Positions 1 to 32,172 of a stretch of DNA of 32,408 bases are shown piece after piece. The stretch is from Alphaproteobacteria bacterium. GTDB lineage: Bacteria > Pseudomonadota > Alphaproteobacteria > Rs-D84. Numbering within the stretch: position 1 is the first letter of the stretch; each line of letters opens with the position of its first letter. The position numbers were made by a program, and so were the translations under genes. Below the pieces are notes generated by a model that did no database searches, was not told the origin of the DNA, and saw only the letters and a program-made list of their open reading frames with translations. The stretch spans positions 1-32,408 of the forward strand of contig WRJH01000007.1 of the NCBI GenBank assembly GCA_009782315.1, read 5' to 3'.

Positions 1-1222
1 CCCTTTCCATCGGGATTTTCGCGCCCATGTCGGCGGCGGCGCGGCAAAGAAAGAATTTCGTCACGGTCAAATCGACCGGCAATTCGAACACTTGGTCCAT
101 ATATGGCGCGGCGCATTCCGAACATACCGCCCGGGCCGTTTTTTTCGACATGAATTTCAAATCGTCGGTCCGGCCGCATCCCGAACACTTGGTCAAATCC
201 AGCGCGTATCCGACAGAACGCAACAGCTGTATTTCCCAATCGATATAACGCTGCCCCCCACCGGAAACGCTGTGCGTTTCCGACTCCCCCCGATGGGGGG
301 AGTAATCGGGACCAATCACTCCCCCCTTGGGGGGAGTCGGCGCGCCAGCGCCGGTGGGGGGATATAAATATCCGCTTATCTCGCCCAGCACGTCGTTCAT
401 ATTCTTGAAAATTTCTTCGTTATCAAATCTTATTATCTTATAACCGTCACTATTTAATGCGCGGGTTCTTTCGACATCGTGCAATCGCCGGCCTTCTTCA
501 TAATGCTGTATGCCGTCCAGTTCTATTATCAATTTTTTTTCCAGGCATGCAAAATCGGCTATATATTTGTCCACCGGACACTGCTTTCGGAAAGCAACCC
601 CCAACTTGTTATCGCGCAGGTAATGCCACAGTAATTTTTCCGCATCCGTCATTTCCCGGCGAAGTTTTTGAGCGTTTGCCAGCGCGCGTTCTGTATATCT
701 TCGCTTTGGAGCATATATTTGCCCCCCACCGGAAACGCTGTGCGTTTCCGACTCCCCCCGATGGGGGGAGTAATCGGGACCAATCACTCCCCCCTTGGGG
801 GGAGTCGGCGCGCCAGCGCCGGTGGGGGGACGATTATCAAATTTCAGAAAGTCATTCACAAGACCGATTAACAATTCTTCCGTTGCATTAAACAGAACGG
901 AATCTTCGGCCCTTTCCGGCACCAGCGCGGAAACCAAAGCGAACGCGGAATTCATAAAAGACAACGCGGCCGCGTCACGCATAATCGGCGCCGCCAAATT
1001 CTTTTCCGATTCGAAATGAAACACGCCCAGTTGCGAATCCAGCCGCGCGTTCCACGACACGTTCCCGCATTGCCCGACCAAAGGCTTGTTTTTTCGGGCG
1101 ACAATCGCGCCCTTTATCATTCCGGCCAGAACACCGTGACGCTGCGTCAGTATTTTCGCAATCATGTCTCGTTCGCCGAATGGCCGCAGACCGATAATAA
1201 TGCCAATAGATTCCAGTTTCAT
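1..1222 (-). CDS. recO: RecO DNA repair protein with in-frame DUF559 endonuclease insertion (C-terminus off the window)
   Basis: RecO helps RecF/RecR load RecA onto single-stranded DNA and anneals strands. The minus frame from ATG 1222 stays open to base 1 (407 codons, 3' end missing); the ORF track omits it because no stop is in the window. Residues 1-130 are RecO-like (start MKLESIGIIIGLRPFGERD, the OB-fold region, then helices). Residues 324-407 resume RecO with YIDWEIQLLRSVGYALDL and a CxxC/CxxC zinc site (C346, C349, C367, C370). Between them, residues 132-167 and 288-323 are identical repeat-encoded linkers and 168-287 are a full DUF559 domain. The split lies where RecO normally has a helix-helix loop before the Y/F-E-LL-LGY segment. 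Without the insertion the protein would be about 240 aa, the family's usual size. There is no Shine-Dalgarno, but a TTGTCG-17-TATAAT promoter ends 10 nt before ATG. The frame and domains are read directly; RecO activity of the chimera is unknown. Confidence 0.9.
   Translation of the reverse strand, partial: MKLESIGIIIGLRPFGERDMIAKILTQRHGVLAGMIKGAIVARKNKPLVGQCGNVSWNARLDSQLGVFHFESEKNLAAPIMRDAAALSFMNSAFALVSALVPERAEDSVLFNATEELLIGLVNDFLKFDNRPPTGAGAPTPPKGGVIGPDYSPHRGESETHSVSGGGQIYAPKRRYTERALANAQKLRREMTDAEKLLWHYLRDNKLGVAFRKQCPVDKYIADFACLEKKLIIELDGIQHYEEGRRLHDVERTRALNSDGYKIIRFDNEEIFKNMNDVLGEISGYLYPPTGAGAPTPPKGGVIGPDYSPHRGESETHSVSGGGQRYIDWEIQLLRSVGYALDLTKCSGCGRTDDLKFMSKKTARAVCSECAAPYMDQVFELPVDLTVTKFFLCRAAADMGAKIPMER
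252..362 (-). repeat. 111-bp coding palindromic repeat, copy B (C-terminal side of DUF559)
   Basis: This is identical over 111 bp to 720-830. It has 11-bp terminal inverted repeats (CCCCCCACCGG / CCGGTGGGGGG) enclosing hairpins: GGAAACGC-TGT-GCGTTTCC, ACTCCCCCC-GAT-GGGGGGAGT, ACTCCCCCC-TT-GGGGGGAGT and a small GGCGC/GCGCC stem, a cloverleaf-like fold. Four of the six reading frames lack stops. In the recO frame it encodes a Pro/Gly/Ser-rich linker beginning PPTGAGAPTPPKGG. Confidence 0.95.
720..830 (-). repeat. 111-bp coding palindromic repeat, copy A (N-terminal side of DUF559)
   Basis: Same sequence, orientation and reading frame as 252-362, encoding the same flexible linker between RecO residue 131 and the DUF559 domain. 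The absence of any mismatch between the copies suggests recent insertion or gene conversion. Confidence 0.95.
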
Positions 1223-5980: not shown

Positions 5981-7738
5981 CTATTTGTTTTTTCTTTCCA
6001 AGTCGACGATTATTTTTTTCCAGTCGACTTTTTTTATCAATCCCTTTTCGACCATGGTTTCGACGAAATTCCGGCGGTATTTCGGACTCACGTTTTGAAT
6101 CGCGATTGTTTCAATTTCGGCGCGCGATTTTGTGAACCATGTGGAAAAAGCGCGCAAACCGCCGTCGTTATTCTTTAACAGCGTCATCGCTATCGCGCGG
6201 ATTACCAGCGCGTCGTCCGCCGCGGAAAGCGAAGCCGCCTTTTTACACATCGCGTCGACAACGGTGTCGCCGTCCTTTATCGTGAAAAGTTTTTTATCGT
6301 ACATTCCGGCGACCATGTCGATATGCCGTATTATGGTGTCGCTGCTTTGCGTGAACAGCGGCGGCTGTTTCATCGCCGCGTCCAGATATTTTTCCATAGT
6401 CAATCCAACGCCCGCGAACGCTTCGACAACCCTGGTGATATATCCCGCGACCGTGTCCGGGCGCAGCGAGAACAAGGGCACCTGTCTTTTCGCCACGGCG
6501 ATATATTTCTCAACCGTCATGCCGTGTTGTTCGAATTTTTCCACGAAACCTTTTATATTATATTCTATGGTTTCGGGCGATGTCGAGAACAGCGACGGGC
6601 GTTTTACCGCGCACGCCACATATTCGTCGTATGAAAGCCCGTACGGTTCGAATACTTCAACGACCCCGTTCACGTTTATCGCCATTCTTTCGGGCGTGCG
6701 GGTGAACATCGTCGGCTCGTCTTTCAACGCCATATTTATATAACTGGCAAGTTTCAGATTGAACTTTTCACAGGCTCCTTTCACATTGTTTTCTATCCAA
6801 CAAGGTTTTGCGGAAAACAGTTGCGGATGTTTCAATGCCGCCGCCAGATATTCCGAAATATCAATACCCAACCTTTTGACCGTCTCTCTTACCCTGTTGC
6901 ATACCGTGTCCGGATTGCGCGAAAACAGCGACGGGTCTTTCTTTACCACAGCCAGGTATTTTTCCAACGTGACGCCGTATTGTTCGAATTGCTTTACGAC
7001 CATCGTTATATTGCGTTCCGCCGCATCGGGCGACAAAGTGAACAGTCTGGGATATTTCATGGCCATCTGAATGTATTCCGCAACGTCCAACCCGAATCTG
7101 TCGGAAACCCCCGCAATATTTCGTTTTGTCGTTTCCAGTTTTTGAGTCAGCAACTGGGGCCATTTCATCGCCACGGGCACGTATTGTTCGGCCGTCAGTC
7201 CATCCGATTCGAATATTCCGGCCACTTCCTTTACATTGGATTCCACCGTGTCGGGCCTGTACGCAAGAGCGTCGGGACGCTTTGTCAAAGCTTTCAAATA
7301 TTGTTCAAGCGTCACGCCGTATTCTTTGAATTTTTCGGCGCCCGCGCGGATATTGCGCCATATAATTCCGGGCGACCGAGTGAACAGTACGGGACTCTTT
7401 TGCGCCACCATCAGATAGCTTTCCAACGTCACGCCGTACGGTTCCAATATTTTCACGATTTCTTTTATGTTATACTCTATCGTGCCGGGCTTTGAATAAA
7501 ACAGCGACGGTTGCGATTTAGCCGCGGCCAAATAATCCGAGAATTCCAAATACGGCGCGAAACGCGCGGCCGCGTTTTCAATTTTTTGCCTGAAATTAAA
7601 ATAACAGGAATCCGGCCCCAAATCGTTGAAAATTGTTCTGCGAAATATGCGGTCAGCGGCTTTGTCCGCGTCTGCGGCGGACATGCCCGGAACCAATATC
7701 AGATTTTTCCTGATACGTGCTTTCAAATCGTTTGCCAT
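5981..7738 (-). CDS. mTERF-like helical repeat protein, eleven ~38-aa repeats
   Basis: At 585 aa, residues ~64-485 consist of eleven repeats of 36-40 aa with consensus G-(V/L)T-E-YL-A-K-P-LF-S-PDTI-NI-V-F-YG. Examples are VTLEKYLAVVKKDPSLFSRN and LTMEKYLDAAMKQPPLFTQS. The P-x-LF turn, the downstream SP-x-TI-x-x-NI helix and the three-helix spacing resemble mTERF motifs, which form nucleic-acid-binding solenoids in mitochondria and plastids. An N-terminal ~60-aa helical cap and a C-terminal ~100-aa domain without repeats flank the array. There is no signal peptide or membrane segment. AGGGGG lies six bases before ATG; TTGACA with an AT-rich -10 region lies upstream, divergent from groES. Assignment to mTERF is from pattern only; other alpha solenoids are possible. 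Confidence 0.8.
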   Translation of the reverse strand: MANDLKARIRKNLILVPGMSAADADKAADRIFRRTIFNDLGPDSCYFNFRQKIENAAARFAPYLEFSDYLAAAKSQPSLFYSKPGTIEYNIKEIVKILEPYGVTLESYLMVAQKSPVLFTRSPGIIWRNIRAGAEKFKEYGVTLEQYLKALTKRPDALAYRPDTVESNVKEVAGIFESDGLTAEQYVPVAMKWPQLLTQKLETTKRNIAGVSDRFGLDVAEYIQMAMKYPRLFTLSPDAAERNITMVVKQFEQYGVTLEKYLAVVKKDPSLFSRNPDTVCNRVRETVKRLGIDISEYLAAALKHPQLFSAKPCWIENNVKGACEKFNLKLASYINMALKDEPTMFTRTPERMAINVNGVVEVFEPYGLSYDEYVACAVKRPSLFSTSPETIEYNIKGFVEKFEQHGMTVEKYIAVAKRQVPLFSLRPDTVAGYITRVVEAFAGVGLTMEKYLDAAMKQPPLFTQSSDTIIRHIDMVAGMYDKKLFTIKDGDTVVDAMCKKAASLSAADDALVIRAIAMTLLKNNDGGLRAFSTWFTKSRAEIETIAIQNVSPKYRRNFVETMVEKGLIKKVDWKKIIVDLERKNK

Positions 7739-17652: not shown

Positions 17653-19512
17653 ATGACAAATAAAATCGACAAACCGGTTGAAATTTTGGAAAACAATCGA
17701 TTGGCCCCCAATGTTATGGAAATGGTTTTGGATGCGCCGCATATCGCGGAAACGGCACAGCCCGGGCAATTTGTAAACCTGTTCGTCGAACGCGGCCGGT
17801 TGCGCCGACCGTTTACCATATCCGCCGTCGACAACAAATATAAAACCGTCACCGTCAGATACCGCGTCGGCGGCAAAGGAACAAAAGCGCTGGCGAATAT
17901 GAAACCGGGAACGGAATTATTGTGCATGGGCCCCTTGGGGAACGGGTTTTCCATAAAAGGCTGGAAAAAAAACAAATTTACGAACAATATAATAATCGGC
18001 GGCGGAATGGGTTCGGCGTTCGTTCCGTTTATGGAACAAAAATTGTCCAAAAACGGTTCGTTTACGGATATCATAGTCGGCGGCAAGACGAAAAAGGACA
18101 TTTGTTTCTGGAACGACGTCATAGCCAGTCCCGACATCTGGTTCATGACCGAAGACGGCACGCACGGGCACCAGGGTTTGGTTACGGATATATTGCGCGT
18201 CCTTTTGCAATCGGAATTGAAATACGAAAAAATTTACACATGCGGACCGGTCCCTATGATGAAGGCCGTTTATGAAATCGCAAAACAATTCGACATAGAC
18301 GTCGAATGCGCGTTGGAATCCGAAATGGGTTGCGGATACAATGTCTGCAAATCGTGCACTTGCAAGGGGTCGGACGGCAAAGCGGTTTCAATATGCAAAG
18401 ACGGTCCGGTTCTTTCCGGCGACAAAATCGATTGGGAATATCTGGAAGAAAAAGAAGACCAGAAAAAACAAAAAACCGACACGCCCGATTTTACCAGAAC
18501 GCGCAGCCAGATTAAAAATTCGTACAAGTTCGATTTGAACGGATTCTTGAACGACAACCCGTATATCGCGGCAAGCGGATGCGCCGGATTCGGAATCGAA
18601 CAGGACAACATCACGGACATGTCGAACTTCGGCGCGATTTCATTAAAGGGACTGACCCGGAACCTGCGCTTTGGAAATCCCGGAACGCGAATAAAAGAAA
18701 TACCGTGCGGCGGAATTATGAATTCCATCGGATTGGAAAATCCCGGCGTCGAATATTTTGTGAACGAAATATCGCCGAAAATAGAAAAGAAGTTCGATGG
18801 AAAGAACACGAAAATCATCGCGAATATTTCGGCCGCCACGCCCCAAGAATTCGCAGAAATGATTCATCTGTTGAACGGTTCGTACGTCGACGCGTATGAA
18901 ATCAACGTGTCGTGCCCCAATCTGGATAAAAAGATTATCGGCACGAACGCACAGCTTGTTTTCGATGTTACAAAAGCGGCGCATGCGGCGACGCTGCATA
19001 GGCCTATCTTTGTAAAGCTGACCCCGAATGTGGCGAATATCGGCGAAATCGCCGCCGCCGCGGAATCCGCGGGCGCGCAGGCGATATCCCTTGTCAATAC
19101 CGTCATCGGATACGACATGGACCCGAAAACGGGGCGCAGTATTCTTTACAACGGCATCGCCGGAATGTCGCATCACGCGGTCGTTCGGGAAATCGCGCTG
19201 GCCAAAACTATCGAAGTGGTCAAATCGACCGGGTTGCCCGTTATCGCGGGCGGCGGGATATGGGATGAAACGGATATCGTGCGGTTTGCGTTGGCCGGCG
19301 CGGACGCGTTTTCTATCGGAACCGAATTGCTGCCCAATCCGGGATTGATGGAAACCCTGCCCGCGCGCGTCAAAGAATTCTTGGCGCGGTATTGGGGCGG
19401 TAAAACACTTGGCGAAATAACAGGCGCGGGATATTTGAACAACGAGGGGCGCACCATCGCCGATGCAAAGCTTTCGTATATAAAAAGTCAAAACACAAAA
19501 CGAATAAAATAA
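17653..19512 (+). CDS. pyrD: Fused dihydroorotate dehydrogenase B (PyrK electron-transfer unit + PyrD catalytic unit)
   Basis: It oxidises dihydroorotate to orotate in pyrimidine synthesis, passing electrons to NAD+. The track frame begins at 17068, but AAAAGGAATCTT directly before ATG 17653 and the homology support 619 aa. Residues 1-265 are PyrK: FAD motif RRPFTIS (51-57), pyridine-nucleotide motif IIIGGGMGSAFV (~114), and 2Fe-2S cysteines C227, C232, C235, C248 (GCGYNVCKSC). A charged linker (EEKEDQKKQK) leads to PyrD from ~290: ASGCAGFG, YEINVSCPNLD (catalytic Cys as in class 1 enzymes), VKLTPN, SLVNTVIGYDMDP, GLPVIAGGGIWD and FSIGTELL. In Gram-positives these are two polypeptides; here they are one. 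A terminator follows at once. Confidence 0.95.
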   Translation: MTNKIDKPVEILENNRLAPNVMEMVLDAPHIAETAQPGQFVNLFVERGRLRRPFTISAVDNKYKTVTVRYRVGGKGTKALANMKPGTELLCMGPLGNGFSIKGWKKNKFTNNIIIGGGMGSAFVPFMEQKLSKNGSFTDIIVGGKTKKDICFWNDVIASPDIWFMTEDGTHGHQGLVTDILRVLLQSELKYEKIYTCGPVPMMKAVYEIAKQFDIDVECALESEMGCGYNVCKSCTCKGSDGKAVSICKDGPVLSGDKIDWEYLEEKEDQKKQKTDTPDFTRTRSQIKNSYKFDLNGFLNDNPYIAASGCAGFGIEQDNITDMSNFGAISLKGLTRNLRFGNPGTRIKEIPCGGIMNSIGLENPGVEYFVNEISPKIEKKFDGKNTKIIANISAATPQEFAEMIHLLNGSYVDAYEINVSCPNLDKKIIGTNAQLVFDVTKAAHAATLHRPIFVKLTPNVANIGEIAAAAESAGAQAISLVNTVIGYDMDPKTGRSILYNGIAGMSHHAVVREIALAKTIEVVKSTGLPVIAGGGIWDETDIVRFALAGADAFSIGTELLPNPGLMETLPARVKEFLARYWGGKTLGEITGAGYLNNEGRTIADAKLSYIKSQNTKRIK

Positions 19513-19538
19513 AAAACGCCCGAAAGGGCGTTTTTTTA
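19513..19538. terminator. Terminator between pyrKD and the ParB-like/CYTH gene
   Basis: AAAAACGCCC-GAAA-GGGCGTTTTTTT, with A and T tracts on both sides, so it can serve both convergent genes. Confidence 0.92.
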
Positions 19539-20849
19539 TTTCTGCTTTGTTCGCATTATTTCTTCAAATCGGGCGTTCGCCGCATACTGCCCGCCGGCGG
19601 AAAGAATTTTGGTTATGTTCTTGTTCTTGAATGCCGGTTCATGCGTCACGTTTATCGGATGCATTCTGGCCAACCAATTCGGCAAAACATACGTCGCCGG
19701 GTCTTCGTCTTCCAGAAATTCGCGTTCTATGGATACGAACGACAAATTGGGCGTATCGTAAAAATCTATTTCGATAACGCCGTGCCCGTCCGGAATCAGA
19801 CAGCGCGATTTTTGGATTTGCCCAGCCGCAAACCCGCACAGCGCATTATATTCGGATTTGGTTATATCGAATTCCACCTGTGCCCTGTCGCGGCCGGCGT
19901 TGGTCGTGACGTTCTTGAAAGTCGCCACAAATTTCTTGTCGTACGCGCGGTATCTGAATTCGGATTCATCCGGAAAATTCCCCATGAAATCCAAAATGCC
20001 GTCCCGGATTCCGGTCAGATTTTCAGGGTTCAGATTCAGCACCGGGTTGCCGCCCACTTTCAGAATATTTCCGTCCAAAGACAGATTATGTCCGGCGGGT
20101 ATGTATCCCTGGACAATCGTGCCGGACTTTATCAGATACGAATGAGTTTTCGGCAAAACGAATTTCGGCAGAACCCATTTTATTTCGCGTTCGTTCCGCA
20201 GGTTGCGCACTTCGCCCGTGCGCCGCGCCGCATCGACCAGGTCGACATCGGTATCGACGCGCATGATTTTCGTCTGGCCCGGAAATCTGTAATGGCGGAA
20301 ATAATATTTGTATTCTTCGCTTGTCGGATAGCGTTTGTATCTTTTTATAAAGTCCGCCGGCGCCTCTGCCTTGAAATCTTCGAATTCACGGATGCCGGCC
20401 CATCCCGCGGGCGATTCCTTGGTCGACGGCTTCCAATCTTTCGACACGCCGCGAACGAACACGGCGGTGAACGGTTTGTTCTGGCGCGCGGCGTATGTTA
20501 TGCGATGCGTTCCGTCGACCAGCAATGGTTTGCCATCCGTGATTTCGACAATCGGCGGATATAAAGTATACCGAACGCCGTCGATTTCGTATGTAATAAA
20601 GCCCTTTTGGTTCAGAAAATCGATGCCGTGATTTTCCTGTAACTGGCGGTCCAATTCCGCCAGGAATTCCAATTGACTGGTGTACACGTATGTCTGGGAC
20701 GCGACTATGTCGCTTTGCTTTACGGTCCTGACGGAAATGTCCGCGTCCAGATACGGCGCCATATCCGCGTTGCCGAACAGCACCGTGTTGTGTTTGAAAT
20801 AATTGACCAGGGTTGTCTTGTCGCTGATTTCGAGAGATTTAATTTGCAT
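19536..20849 (-). CDS. ParB/Srx-like domain fused to a CYTH (triphosphate tunnel) domain
   Basis: The protein is 437 aa. The N-terminal half contains PPIVEITDGKPLLVDGTHRI (~98-117) followed by TYAARQNKPFTAVFVRG, the D-G-x-H-R pattern of ParB/sulfiredoxin-like folds. The C-terminal half (~215-430) reads as a CYTH domain: NEREIKWVLP carries the ExExK signature, then GTIVQGYIPAG, FRYRAYDKKFVATFK, RAQVEFDITKSEYNAL, SRCLIPDGHGVIEIDFYD, SIEREFLEDED and LPNWLARMHPINVTHEPAF. CYTH enzymes act on triphosphate groups (adenylyl cyclase, thiamine triphosphatase, polyphosphatase). The combined function is unknown, and I know of no standard family with this pairing. AAAGG precedes ATG. It diverges from a nucleotidase. 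Confidence 0.72.
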   Translation of the reverse strand: MQIKSLEISDKTTLVNYFKHNTVLFGNADMAPYLDADISVRTVKQSDIVASQTYVYTSQLEFLAELDRQLQENHGIDFLNQKGFITYEIDGVRYTLYPPIVEITDGKPLLVDGTHRITYAARQNKPFTAVFVRGVSKDWKPSTKESPAGWAGIREFEDFKAEAPADFIKRYKRYPTSEEYKYYFRHYRFPGQTKIMRVDTDVDLVDAARRTGEVRNLRNEREIKWVLPKFVLPKTHSYLIKSGTIVQGYIPAGHNLSLDGNILKVGGNPVLNLNPENLTGIRDGILDFMGNFPDESEFRYRAYDKKFVATFKNVTTNAGRDRAQVEFDITKSEYNALCGFAAGQIQKSRCLIPDGHGVIEIDFYDTPNLSFVSIEREFLEDEDPATYVLPNWLARMHPINVTHEPAFKNKNITKILSAGGQYAANARFEEIMRTKQK

Positions 20850-22809: not shown

Positions 22810-23289
22810 ATGAACGAAAAAGATTTGGATTTGGCGCTGGCATACATAAAGGACAAGAAAGTGCGAAAAGAAAATTACCATATAATAGACAACATGTACG
22901 AAACGTACTTTATAACCCAGGGCGATTCATTGGTCCAAAGAATGACATGCACCATTATATTGTATCTGTCGGATTTTCGGAAAAAATTATTGGGCCGCAG
23001 TATAGGCAGGATTACGGGCCAGGTAAAGCGGCTGGAAAACGAATCCGCTTTTTGCCATCCCGCCGACGATAAAATGCGGGCACGCATTGCCAATGCCAAA
23101 CATAACGCGATTCAAAAATTCGACAAAGCTTACGTCGGCGCGATGATCGCCCAGCATCGCATTGCCAATTCGGACAAAAAACCGGCGCCCAGAAAGATAG
23201 AATACCGTGCGGATATGACCGTGACCATACCGGTTTACAAACCCACCACTATGATTTATAAAATCCATCGGGCAAACCGAATAAAATAA
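22810..23289 (+). CDS. Hypothetical 159-aa basic protein
   Basis: No family is recognised. It is a basic, mostly helical soluble protein: MNEKDLDLALAYIKDKKVRK at the start, a moderately hydrophobic stretch (MTCTIILYLSDFRKKLLG) around 45-62, a helical middle with RITGQVKRLENE, and a C-terminal extended tail (MTVTIPVYKPTTMIY). AAAGGA lies nine bases before ATG. It lies 16 bp after the membrane protein gene and ends at a terminator, so it is the last gene of a two-gene operon. Confidence 0.7.
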   Translation: MNEKDLDLALAYIKDKKVRKENYHIIDNMYETYFITQGDSLVQRMTCTIILYLSDFRKKLLGRSIGRITGQVKRLENESAFCHPADDKMRARIANAKHNAIQKFDKAYVGAMIAQHRIANSDKKPAPRKIEYRADMTVTIPVYKPTTMIYKIHRANRIK

Positions 23290-23313
23290 AAATCCGCCAA
23301 ACGGCGGATTTTT
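23288..23313. terminator. Bidirectional terminator between the 159-aa gene and the FKBP gene
   Basis: AAAAATCCGCC-AAAC-GGCGGATTTTT with flanking A/T tracts. The 20-bp core is the exact reverse complement of the terminator core at 1717-1736. Confidence 0.9.
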
Positions 23314-23637
23314 TTATTTCTTGATTTCCAAGACTTTAACTTTGAACACAACCTCTTTCCCAGCCAGTTCGGCGGCGTGATATTGTTCCGGGAACGCCAG
23401 AACCACGTCGCGTTCCTCGCCTTTTTTCGCGCCCATCAATTGGTCTTCGAATCCGGGTATGAATTGGCCGCTGCCCAGCTTAAGCGGGAATCCTTCGGCG
23501 GTGCCGCCCGGAAATTGGACGCCGTCCAAAAACCCTGCAAAGTTAATCACGACAGTATCGCCGGATTTCGCGGCGCCATCGCACGCGCCCACAAACAGCG
23601 CGCCGCATAATGACATGGCTATTGATAATTTCTTCAT
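23314..23637 (-). CDS. FKBP-type peptidyl-prolyl isomerase lipoprotein
   Basis: Taking ATG 23637, which follows AAAAGGAGTAAAC, gives 107 aa with a lipoprotein signal [21 protein letters not shown] (acylated Cys in VGAC). The mature domain resembles the minimal FKBP fold of trigger factor: [55 protein letters not shown] and [15 protein letters not shown]. It probably catalyses prolyl isomerisation of exported proteins at the periplasmic membrane face. The track's earlier start at 23658 adds seven residues and lacks a ribosome site. It lies just 3' of another lipoprotein gene on the same strand. Confidence 0.9.
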
Positions 23638-31719: not shown

Positions 31720-32172
31720 ATGAAAAAACTTTTAACATTCACAGCCGTGTTCGGAATGATGTTCATGGCCGCGGCAAACGCGAACGAAGGCAAAAAATGG
31801 GCCGAAATGACGCCGGAACAAAAGGCCGAAATGAAACAGAAAAAGATGGAAAAATGCATGGAAAAAGGCAAATCATCGGAAGAATGCAAAAAAGTCATGA
31901 TGAATAAAAAGGAGAAAGGCTGCCCGGACGCCGCGAAAAACGATAAAGACGAATGCCCGAAGAAAGCCAGAATGACCGAAGAAGAACGCGCGGCATGGCG
32001 TGAAAAGAAAGCCAGCATGACGGACCAGGAACGCGCGGCATGGCAGGAAAAACGCGCGGCCAAAAGCGGCGAAGCGCGCAAAGAAAACCGTGCCGCCAAA
32101 AACAATTTGAAATCCGGCAAGAAACCGACAAAGAAAGATACGGCCGAAAAACCCTGGTATAAATTCTGGTAA
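31720..32172 (+). CDS. Small charged periplasmic protein with CX9C and CX10C motifs
   Basis: The start ATG 31720 follows GGAG by about eight bases and gives 150 aa; the track start 31636 lies in the promoter. The signal peptide is MKKLLTFTAVFGMMFMAAANA. The mature part is highly charged and helical: WAEMTPEQKAEMKQKKMEKC, then CMEKGKSSEEC (C-x9-C) and CPDAAKNDKDEC (C-x10-C), followed by two similar repeats, MTEEERAAWREKKA and MTDQERAAWQEKRA, and a Lys-rich tail ending PWYKFW. The Cys spacing recalls helical-hairpin (CHCH-like) proteins. No family is recognised; a metal-binding or chaperone-like role is only a guess. Confidence 0.8.
   Translation: MKKLLTFTAVFGMMFMAAANANEGKKWAEMTPEQKAEMKQKKMEKCMEKGKSSEECKKVMMNKKEKGCPDAAKNDKDECPKKARMTEEERAAWREKKASMTDQERAAWQEKRAAKSGEARKENRAAKNNLKSGKKPTKKDTAEKPWYKFW

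Follow-up and report, generated by a model that had tools for sequence, protein, structure and literature searches.

An endonuclease gene bounded by palindromic repeats lies in frame within recO and other housekeeping genes and may decay into RPE-like peptide insertions

Introduction

Palindromic repeats bound a DUF559 endonuclease gene that lies in frame within the recO gene of an alphaproteobacterial genome (0.81 Mb in 60 contigs, 88% complete). This composite recurs in many genes and in several lineages. At two loci the whole unit lies between target duplications, and at one locus a full element has been reduced to a short palindromic scar. We consider it fairly probable that the element is mobilised by its nuclease, survives within genes where the reading frame is kept, and decays into scars that resemble Rickettsia palindromic elements (RPEs).

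The route by which protein-coding palindromes enter genes has been a standing question since RPEs were described. A nuclease situated between such palindromes, together with the reduction of a full element to a bare palindromic insert at a single locus, makes their origin testable. These observations also offer a candidate function for part of the large DUF559 family, and they reveal essential enzymes that carry a foreign nuclease domain without splicing. In what follows, the window is the whole stretch of 32,408 nucleotides that was analysed.

The insertion in recO

Both 111-bp copies of the repeat and the DUF559 sequence between them share one frame with the minus-strand recO gene (1222 to 1). 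This frame opens with an ATG at 1222 and continues to the start of the window as a single stop-free run of 445 codons, in the order recO-N / 111 bp / DUF559 / 111 bp / recO-C, and the insertion amounts to 579 bp, or 193 codons. The initial annotation had treated the repeats by themselves, and so missed both the in-frame recO setting and the nuclease between the copies. The features are as follows, with the recO parts aligned to 15 other RecO proteins.

831..1222, minus strand: 5′ part of recO (RecO_N and first helices), up to the insertion point; TIGR00613 (E 9e-23) and PF11967
720..830, minus strand: upstream 111-bp copy, in frame, encoding PPTGAGAPTPPKGGVIGPDYSPHRGESETHSVSGGGQ; unit R at ~782-830, GGTCCC spacer, unit L at ~720-776
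363..719, minus strand: endonuclease segment in the recO frame; PF04480 (E 5e-36), alignments, structural model and fold match
374-685, minus strand: DUF559 (PF04480) domain, catalytic-type residues intact
252..362, minus strand: downstream 111-bp copy, in frame and identical to the upstream copy; unit R at ~314-362, unit L at ~252-308
314..776, minus strand: putative core element L - DUF559 - R, after the arrangement at most DUF559 loci
1..251, minus strand: 3′ part of recO (RecO_C, zinc motif), running off the contig start; PF02565 at residues 325-372 of P0001, and alignment

Pfam and NCBIfam assign RecO_N, DUF559 and RecO_C to one protein, which consists of the RecO N-terminal part, PPTGAGAPTPPKGGVIGPDYSPHRGESETHSVSGGGQ (the 37 residues encoded by each 111-bp copy in the recO frame), a 110-residue nuclease domain, PPTGAGAPTPPKGGVIGPDYSPHRGESETHSVSGGGQ again, and the RecO C-terminal part. 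The units that lie directly beside DUF559, L upstream and R downstream, form an inverted pair, and with the outer units the arrangement reads R.L on both sides. Pfam detected no intein splicing (Hint) domain in the fusion, its matches being RecO, DUF559 and the related MTES_1575 nuclease; an intein is ruled out, as there is no splicing domain and the nuclease is flanked by palindrome-coded peptides.

RecO was detected in 52 of 60 relatives, and the DUF559 insert occurs only in the window genome and in G012, at the same gap. The RecO of the window groups with its own genus, and its nearest RecO relatives are empty at that gap; in G018 the position holds a short palindrome-like insert. Between the two fusions the inserts are 71% identical and the host RecO sequences 61%. 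When the fusion was modelled, the RecO parts on both sides reached pLDDT values above 90 and the palindrome-coded peptides fell below 50, as disordered segments, and the DUF559 part was of moderate confidence only, owing to an alignment just two sequences deep in that region. A 58-row alignment that combined RecO with lone DUF559 domains was left out of the results, the lone domains appearing misplaced.

Other features were encountered along the window. Ribosomal protein L9 (1743-2360, minus strand) has an extra C-terminal tail of ~60 residues. A 585-aa frame at 5984-7738 (minus strand) contains an mTERF domain (PF02536, E 9e-19), which is unusual in a bacterium, the mTERF family being best known from eukaryotic organelles. 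Terminator-like hairpins, TAAAATAAAAATCCGCC..GGCGGATTTTTTTATT, are repeated at 1708-1744, 19505-19541 and 23282-23318, and an open frame with no Pfam match includes two tandem 45-nt (15-codon) repeats at 31960-32049.

The 111-bp repeat

The copies at 252-362 and 720-830 are identical over the full 111 bp and end in the 11-bp inverted repeat CCCCCCACCGG/CCGGTGGGGGG, both as the initial annotation had reported. It had also read the perfect identity as a mark of recent activity, to which recent transposition would correspond, and recent duplication or gene conversion fits equally well. Each 111-mer is made up of two bi-hairpin units of ~50 bp, arranged head to tail with a GGTCCC spacer between them, and each unit combines a C-rich/G-rich hairpin with a second, variable one and an GGTGGGGGG tail.

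Folding of the 111-mer goes far beyond chance (z about -10, equalled by none of 200 shuffles). Of the three strong internal hairpins and one weak hairpin first described, the weak one stands (-2 kcal/mol), two are strong (-16 and -17 kcal/mol) and the third is of medium strength (-10 kcal/mol). The cloverleaf-like shape originally proposed, a terminal stem with local hairpins, reaches only -68.4 kcal/mol, and the predicted minimum-energy RNA fold is one long rod at -93.7 kcal/mol; a cloverleaf is thus ruled out as the native RNA fold, the rod being better by 25 kcal/mol. Stops occur in exactly one frame on each strand, as had been noted, yet the view that readability in four frames reflects a special design is rejected, because at least four of the six frames are open in 35% of shuffles of the element and in 29% of the 111-bp stretches of the window. 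Random stretches do as well, and the stop-poor make-up is therefore ordinary.

The nuclease

The catalytic-type residues E20, D48, E59, D61 and D74 are invariant across 41 DUF559 sequences and H65 is nearly so. In the comparisons that could be computed, dN/dS lay between 0.04 and 0.12, values from sequence comparison that indicate purifying selection on the domain. The modelled DUF559 domain has a pLDDT of 88, and its best fold matches in the PDB are 3hrl and the homing endonuclease I-Bth0305I (Foldseek E 5.6e-5, TM 0.65-0.74), ahead of Vsr, the mismatch endonuclease that nicks T:G mismatches. On the basis of this model, the window DUF559 is predicted to be a Vsr/EDxHD-type endonuclease of the PD-(D/E)XK/Vsr-like kind.

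DUF559 loci in related genomes

DUF559 matches were found in 39 of 100 relatives; all the genomes in the family of the window genome are probably bins from metagenomes. Of the 40 DUF559 loci that were fetched, 33 lie between inverted palindromic units and the other seven lack detectable inverted ends; the corresponding counts for controls were 1/30 at recO and 0/30 at dummy intervals. Since the loci are not mutually independent, it is this contrast with the controls, and not a p-value, that serves as evidence. Among named DUF559 loci from several phyla, 49 of 80 are flanked in this manner, and the inverted pairs that abut DUF559 across phyla have end sequences unrelated to one another. Additional palindromic units are arrayed around some of the genes.

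Host genes that contain DUF559 in frame among relatives of the window genome are recO, queA, queH, tsaB and truA; in queA of G080 (locus L110), two different DUF559 inserts occupy two sites within one frame of 756 codons. Elsewhere the in-frame hosts, with names read from sequence, are ispE, murD, an AddB/RecB-like gene, wecB and a gene of the methylmalonyl-CoA-mutase type. The insertions in ispE (L176, L184, L201) and murD (L196, L207), which are essential genes of isoprenoid and cell-wall synthesis, come from Gastranaerophilales and related bins, outside the Proteobacteria. The only other DUF559 gene of the window genome (L032, G000 C20:2230-2520) is stand-alone, and the inverted palindromes on its two sides belong to another family (TTATCATGCCCTTCCCAGAAGGGCCGGAA...).

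Dispersed copies of the repeat

About 19 further sites in the window genome, examined as single fetched stretches, carry the repeat as solo units (~50 bp) or as pairs (~104-129 bp). In-frame copies across which the profile match of the host protein continues are present in uvrD/pcrA, xthA, xseA, lepA, terL, ligA, lnt, fmt and mnmE, and a trmN-like gene has an in-frame copy across which the host profile continues less fully. Some seven sites fall between genes or at the ends of contigs. Among the conserved genes of the window genome, none was seen to be broken out of frame by the repeat, sites at contig ends being impossible to judge in this respect. The in-gene units lie in both orientations and use two stop-free coding phases in each, and none of those in the window genome uses the stop-bearing phase. 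The RPE-like, in-frame logic anticipated by the initial annotation is thereby borne out, with about ten conserved genes carrying the repeat in frame; the opposite outcome that it had considered, in which all other copies would be intergenic and free of frame bias, did not occur.

Relatives have in-frame copies in tatD, recN, rnhB, mtaB, rlmE, priA and polA, and also at the end of rsmD. In G000 (the window genome), G012 and G075, the same end family that flanks DUF559 also occurs dispersed. Apart from 12 bp at the xthA copy, target duplications above chance were not found at most of the dispersed repeats.

Target duplications and the queH scar

Clear target duplications were recognized at only two DUF559 loci. 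In G012 a perfect duplication of 25 bp abuts both ends of L-DUF559-R near the start of an oxidoreductase gene; this recent insertion is out of frame on its upstream side, and through the downstream duplicate the host sequence stays in frame. The other case, in G062, is a perfect duplication of 50-54 bp that abuts both ends of the element at the end of an alaS-like frame. Long duplications of variable length would fit widely spaced nicks better than the action of a standard transposase.

The queH gene is present in 144 of 151 genomes, with a full DUF559 insert in five and a scar in one. The scar, in G185, is 112 bp long and in frame, retains both ends of the element and reads HPPSSQAMTPPAPNAWGGGHSDATQNVTRRGVENIQ. 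Its nearest relative, G075 (queH 93% identical), carries the whole DUF559 element, and between the two the inserted span is shortened from 529 to 112 bp by a deletion of 417 bp (139 codons) between 9-bp CGCGRCACA repeats, which keeps the frame. This gene demonstrates that a DUF559 element can leave behind a palindromic peptide insertion of the same size as an RPE.

Comparison of queH between G061 and G026 shows DNA identity rising from 60-80% to ~99% from ~15 bp before the insert through the end of the gene. Such a jump, the strongest sign of homing in these data, is what homing with co-conversion would give, and it could also reflect a chimeric assembly, because the region is a contig end.

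Proposed mechanism and alternatives

The proposed mobile element has a Vsr/EDxHD-type (DUF559) endonuclease gene set between two bi-hairpin ends, L and R; this gene lacks a splicing domain and would be translated within the host protein. Entry into new sites may proceed by nuclease-driven cutting and repair that leaves long target duplications of variable length, and homing with co-conversion is a probable second route, by which the element would pass from allele to allele. Insertions in the middle of a gene would persist only where the frame is kept, and the host enzyme would therefore carry a nuclease domain in addition to its own, joined by disordered linkers that the palindromes encode. 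Loss of the nuclease by a later deletion between short direct repeats would leave ~110 bp of palindromic, peptide-coding sequence in the gene. The RPE-like repeats scattered through these genomes would comprise such scars and non-autonomous paired or solo ends. The decay from element to scar suggests how gene-embedded palindromic repeats originate. The role of DUF559 as motor, its effect in trans on dispersed copies of the repeat, its cutting chemistry and its homing are all inferred.

Alternatively, the palindromes would be REP- or RPE-like miniature elements moved by another enzyme, and DUF559 would be a passenger or would insert beside palindromes that are already tolerated. The repeat-rich genomes G019 and G024 (about 92% complete) gave no DUF559 match, so that the motor may have been lost there or may be something else; the additional units arrayed near some DUF559 genes, and in-gene REP pairs known without a nuclease (PMC3733652), likewise favour another enzyme. 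This explanation is nonetheless unlikely in view of the inverted ends that abut DUF559 across phyla despite their unrelated sequences, the target duplications that bracket the entire L-DUF559-R unit, the derivation of the queH scar from a DUF559 element, and the lack of any Y1_Tnp/RAYT transposase match in the genome of the window.

Recruitment of DUF559 as a functional domain of RecO, with the palindromes as later decoration, has some appeal in that RecO functions in DNA repair, as do Vsr-type enzymes such as VsrA of Caulobacter (PMC12907096), but it is very improbable: DUF559 is absent from 50 of 52 RecO genes, including those of the same clade as the window RecO, the same domain sits in queA, queH, ispE, murD and wecB, and the palindromes are common to both RecO fusions. 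An in silico joining of DUF559 and repeats into recO, which the fragmented assembly (60 contigs) and the frequent position of repeats at contig ends might suggest, is scarcely credible given that the 445-codon frame runs stop-free through both repeats and that the fusion recurs, at an identical recO gap, in an independent assembly (G012, WQUT01000074.1). The nuclease-mobilised element with in-frame survival is the explanation preferred here.

Comparison with known systems

The repeats known as CIRs contain GANTC. The 111-mer resembles them as an alphaproteobacterial hairpin repeat with two GANTC sites per copy, and differs in that CIRs are intergenic and have no known linkage to DUF559. CIRs are the CcrM-associated intergenic repeats of Caulobacter and Brucella (PMC2229807, PMC10969869).

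REPs are short hairpins that lie mostly in inverted pairs, some of them within repair and tRNA-modification genes, and the CGTC REPs, some RPEs included, apparently have no dedicated transposase (REP survey, PMC3733652). In having a nuclease gene between copies of the repeat unit, the window element parallels the REPIN/RAYT arrangement; the flanked gene here, however, is DUF559, of the PD-(D/E)XK/Vsr-like kind, and not Y1, and a RAYT-driven REPIN is ruled out, there being no Y1 transposase in the window's genome. A CGTC (TGTC/CCTC) or GTAG tag beside an 8-9 bp stem is absent from the 111-mer and from four of five other elements, with one chance-like match to tag and stem in the xseA element.

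EDxHD homing endonucleases such as I-Bth0305I (PMC3943268) share the catalytic fold, according to the structure search, and site-biased insertion in conserved genes. The known ones reside in introns or are free-standing (PMC3943268), whereas the window DUF559 is in frame, non-splicing and hairpin-ended. No published description of a palindrome-flanked or in-frame DUF559 was found in the open-access library searched. We tentatively propose, with slightly more doubt than conviction, a class of mobile element absent from the literature searched: a hairpin-ended, non-splicing endonuclease gene, in frame within housekeeping genes, that would spread by homing and transposition and decay into in-frame palindromic peptides.

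The closest likeness in behaviour is to RPEs (Ogata 2000, 2002), which are described as palindromes of 105-150 bp with terminal inverted repeats that have entered unrelated conserved genes without disturbing the frame and add a translated peptide to the product (PMC2229807, PMC10969869). The window repeat is likewise 111 bp long with 11-bp inverted ends, the dispersed dimers measure ~104-129 bp, and copies lie in frame in about ten unrelated conserved genes of the window genome and in more in its relatives. By analogy the repeat appears to work like an RPE, and it is not filed as one because the comparison covered published descriptions of RPEs. What sets it apart is the full-length, nuclease-bearing form present at some sites and the deletion to the short form visible at queH. 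Palindromic peptides such as RPEs have so far been known only as orphan repeats; if the proposed mechanism is true, the DUF559 element could supply the motor that palindromes within genes have so far lacked.
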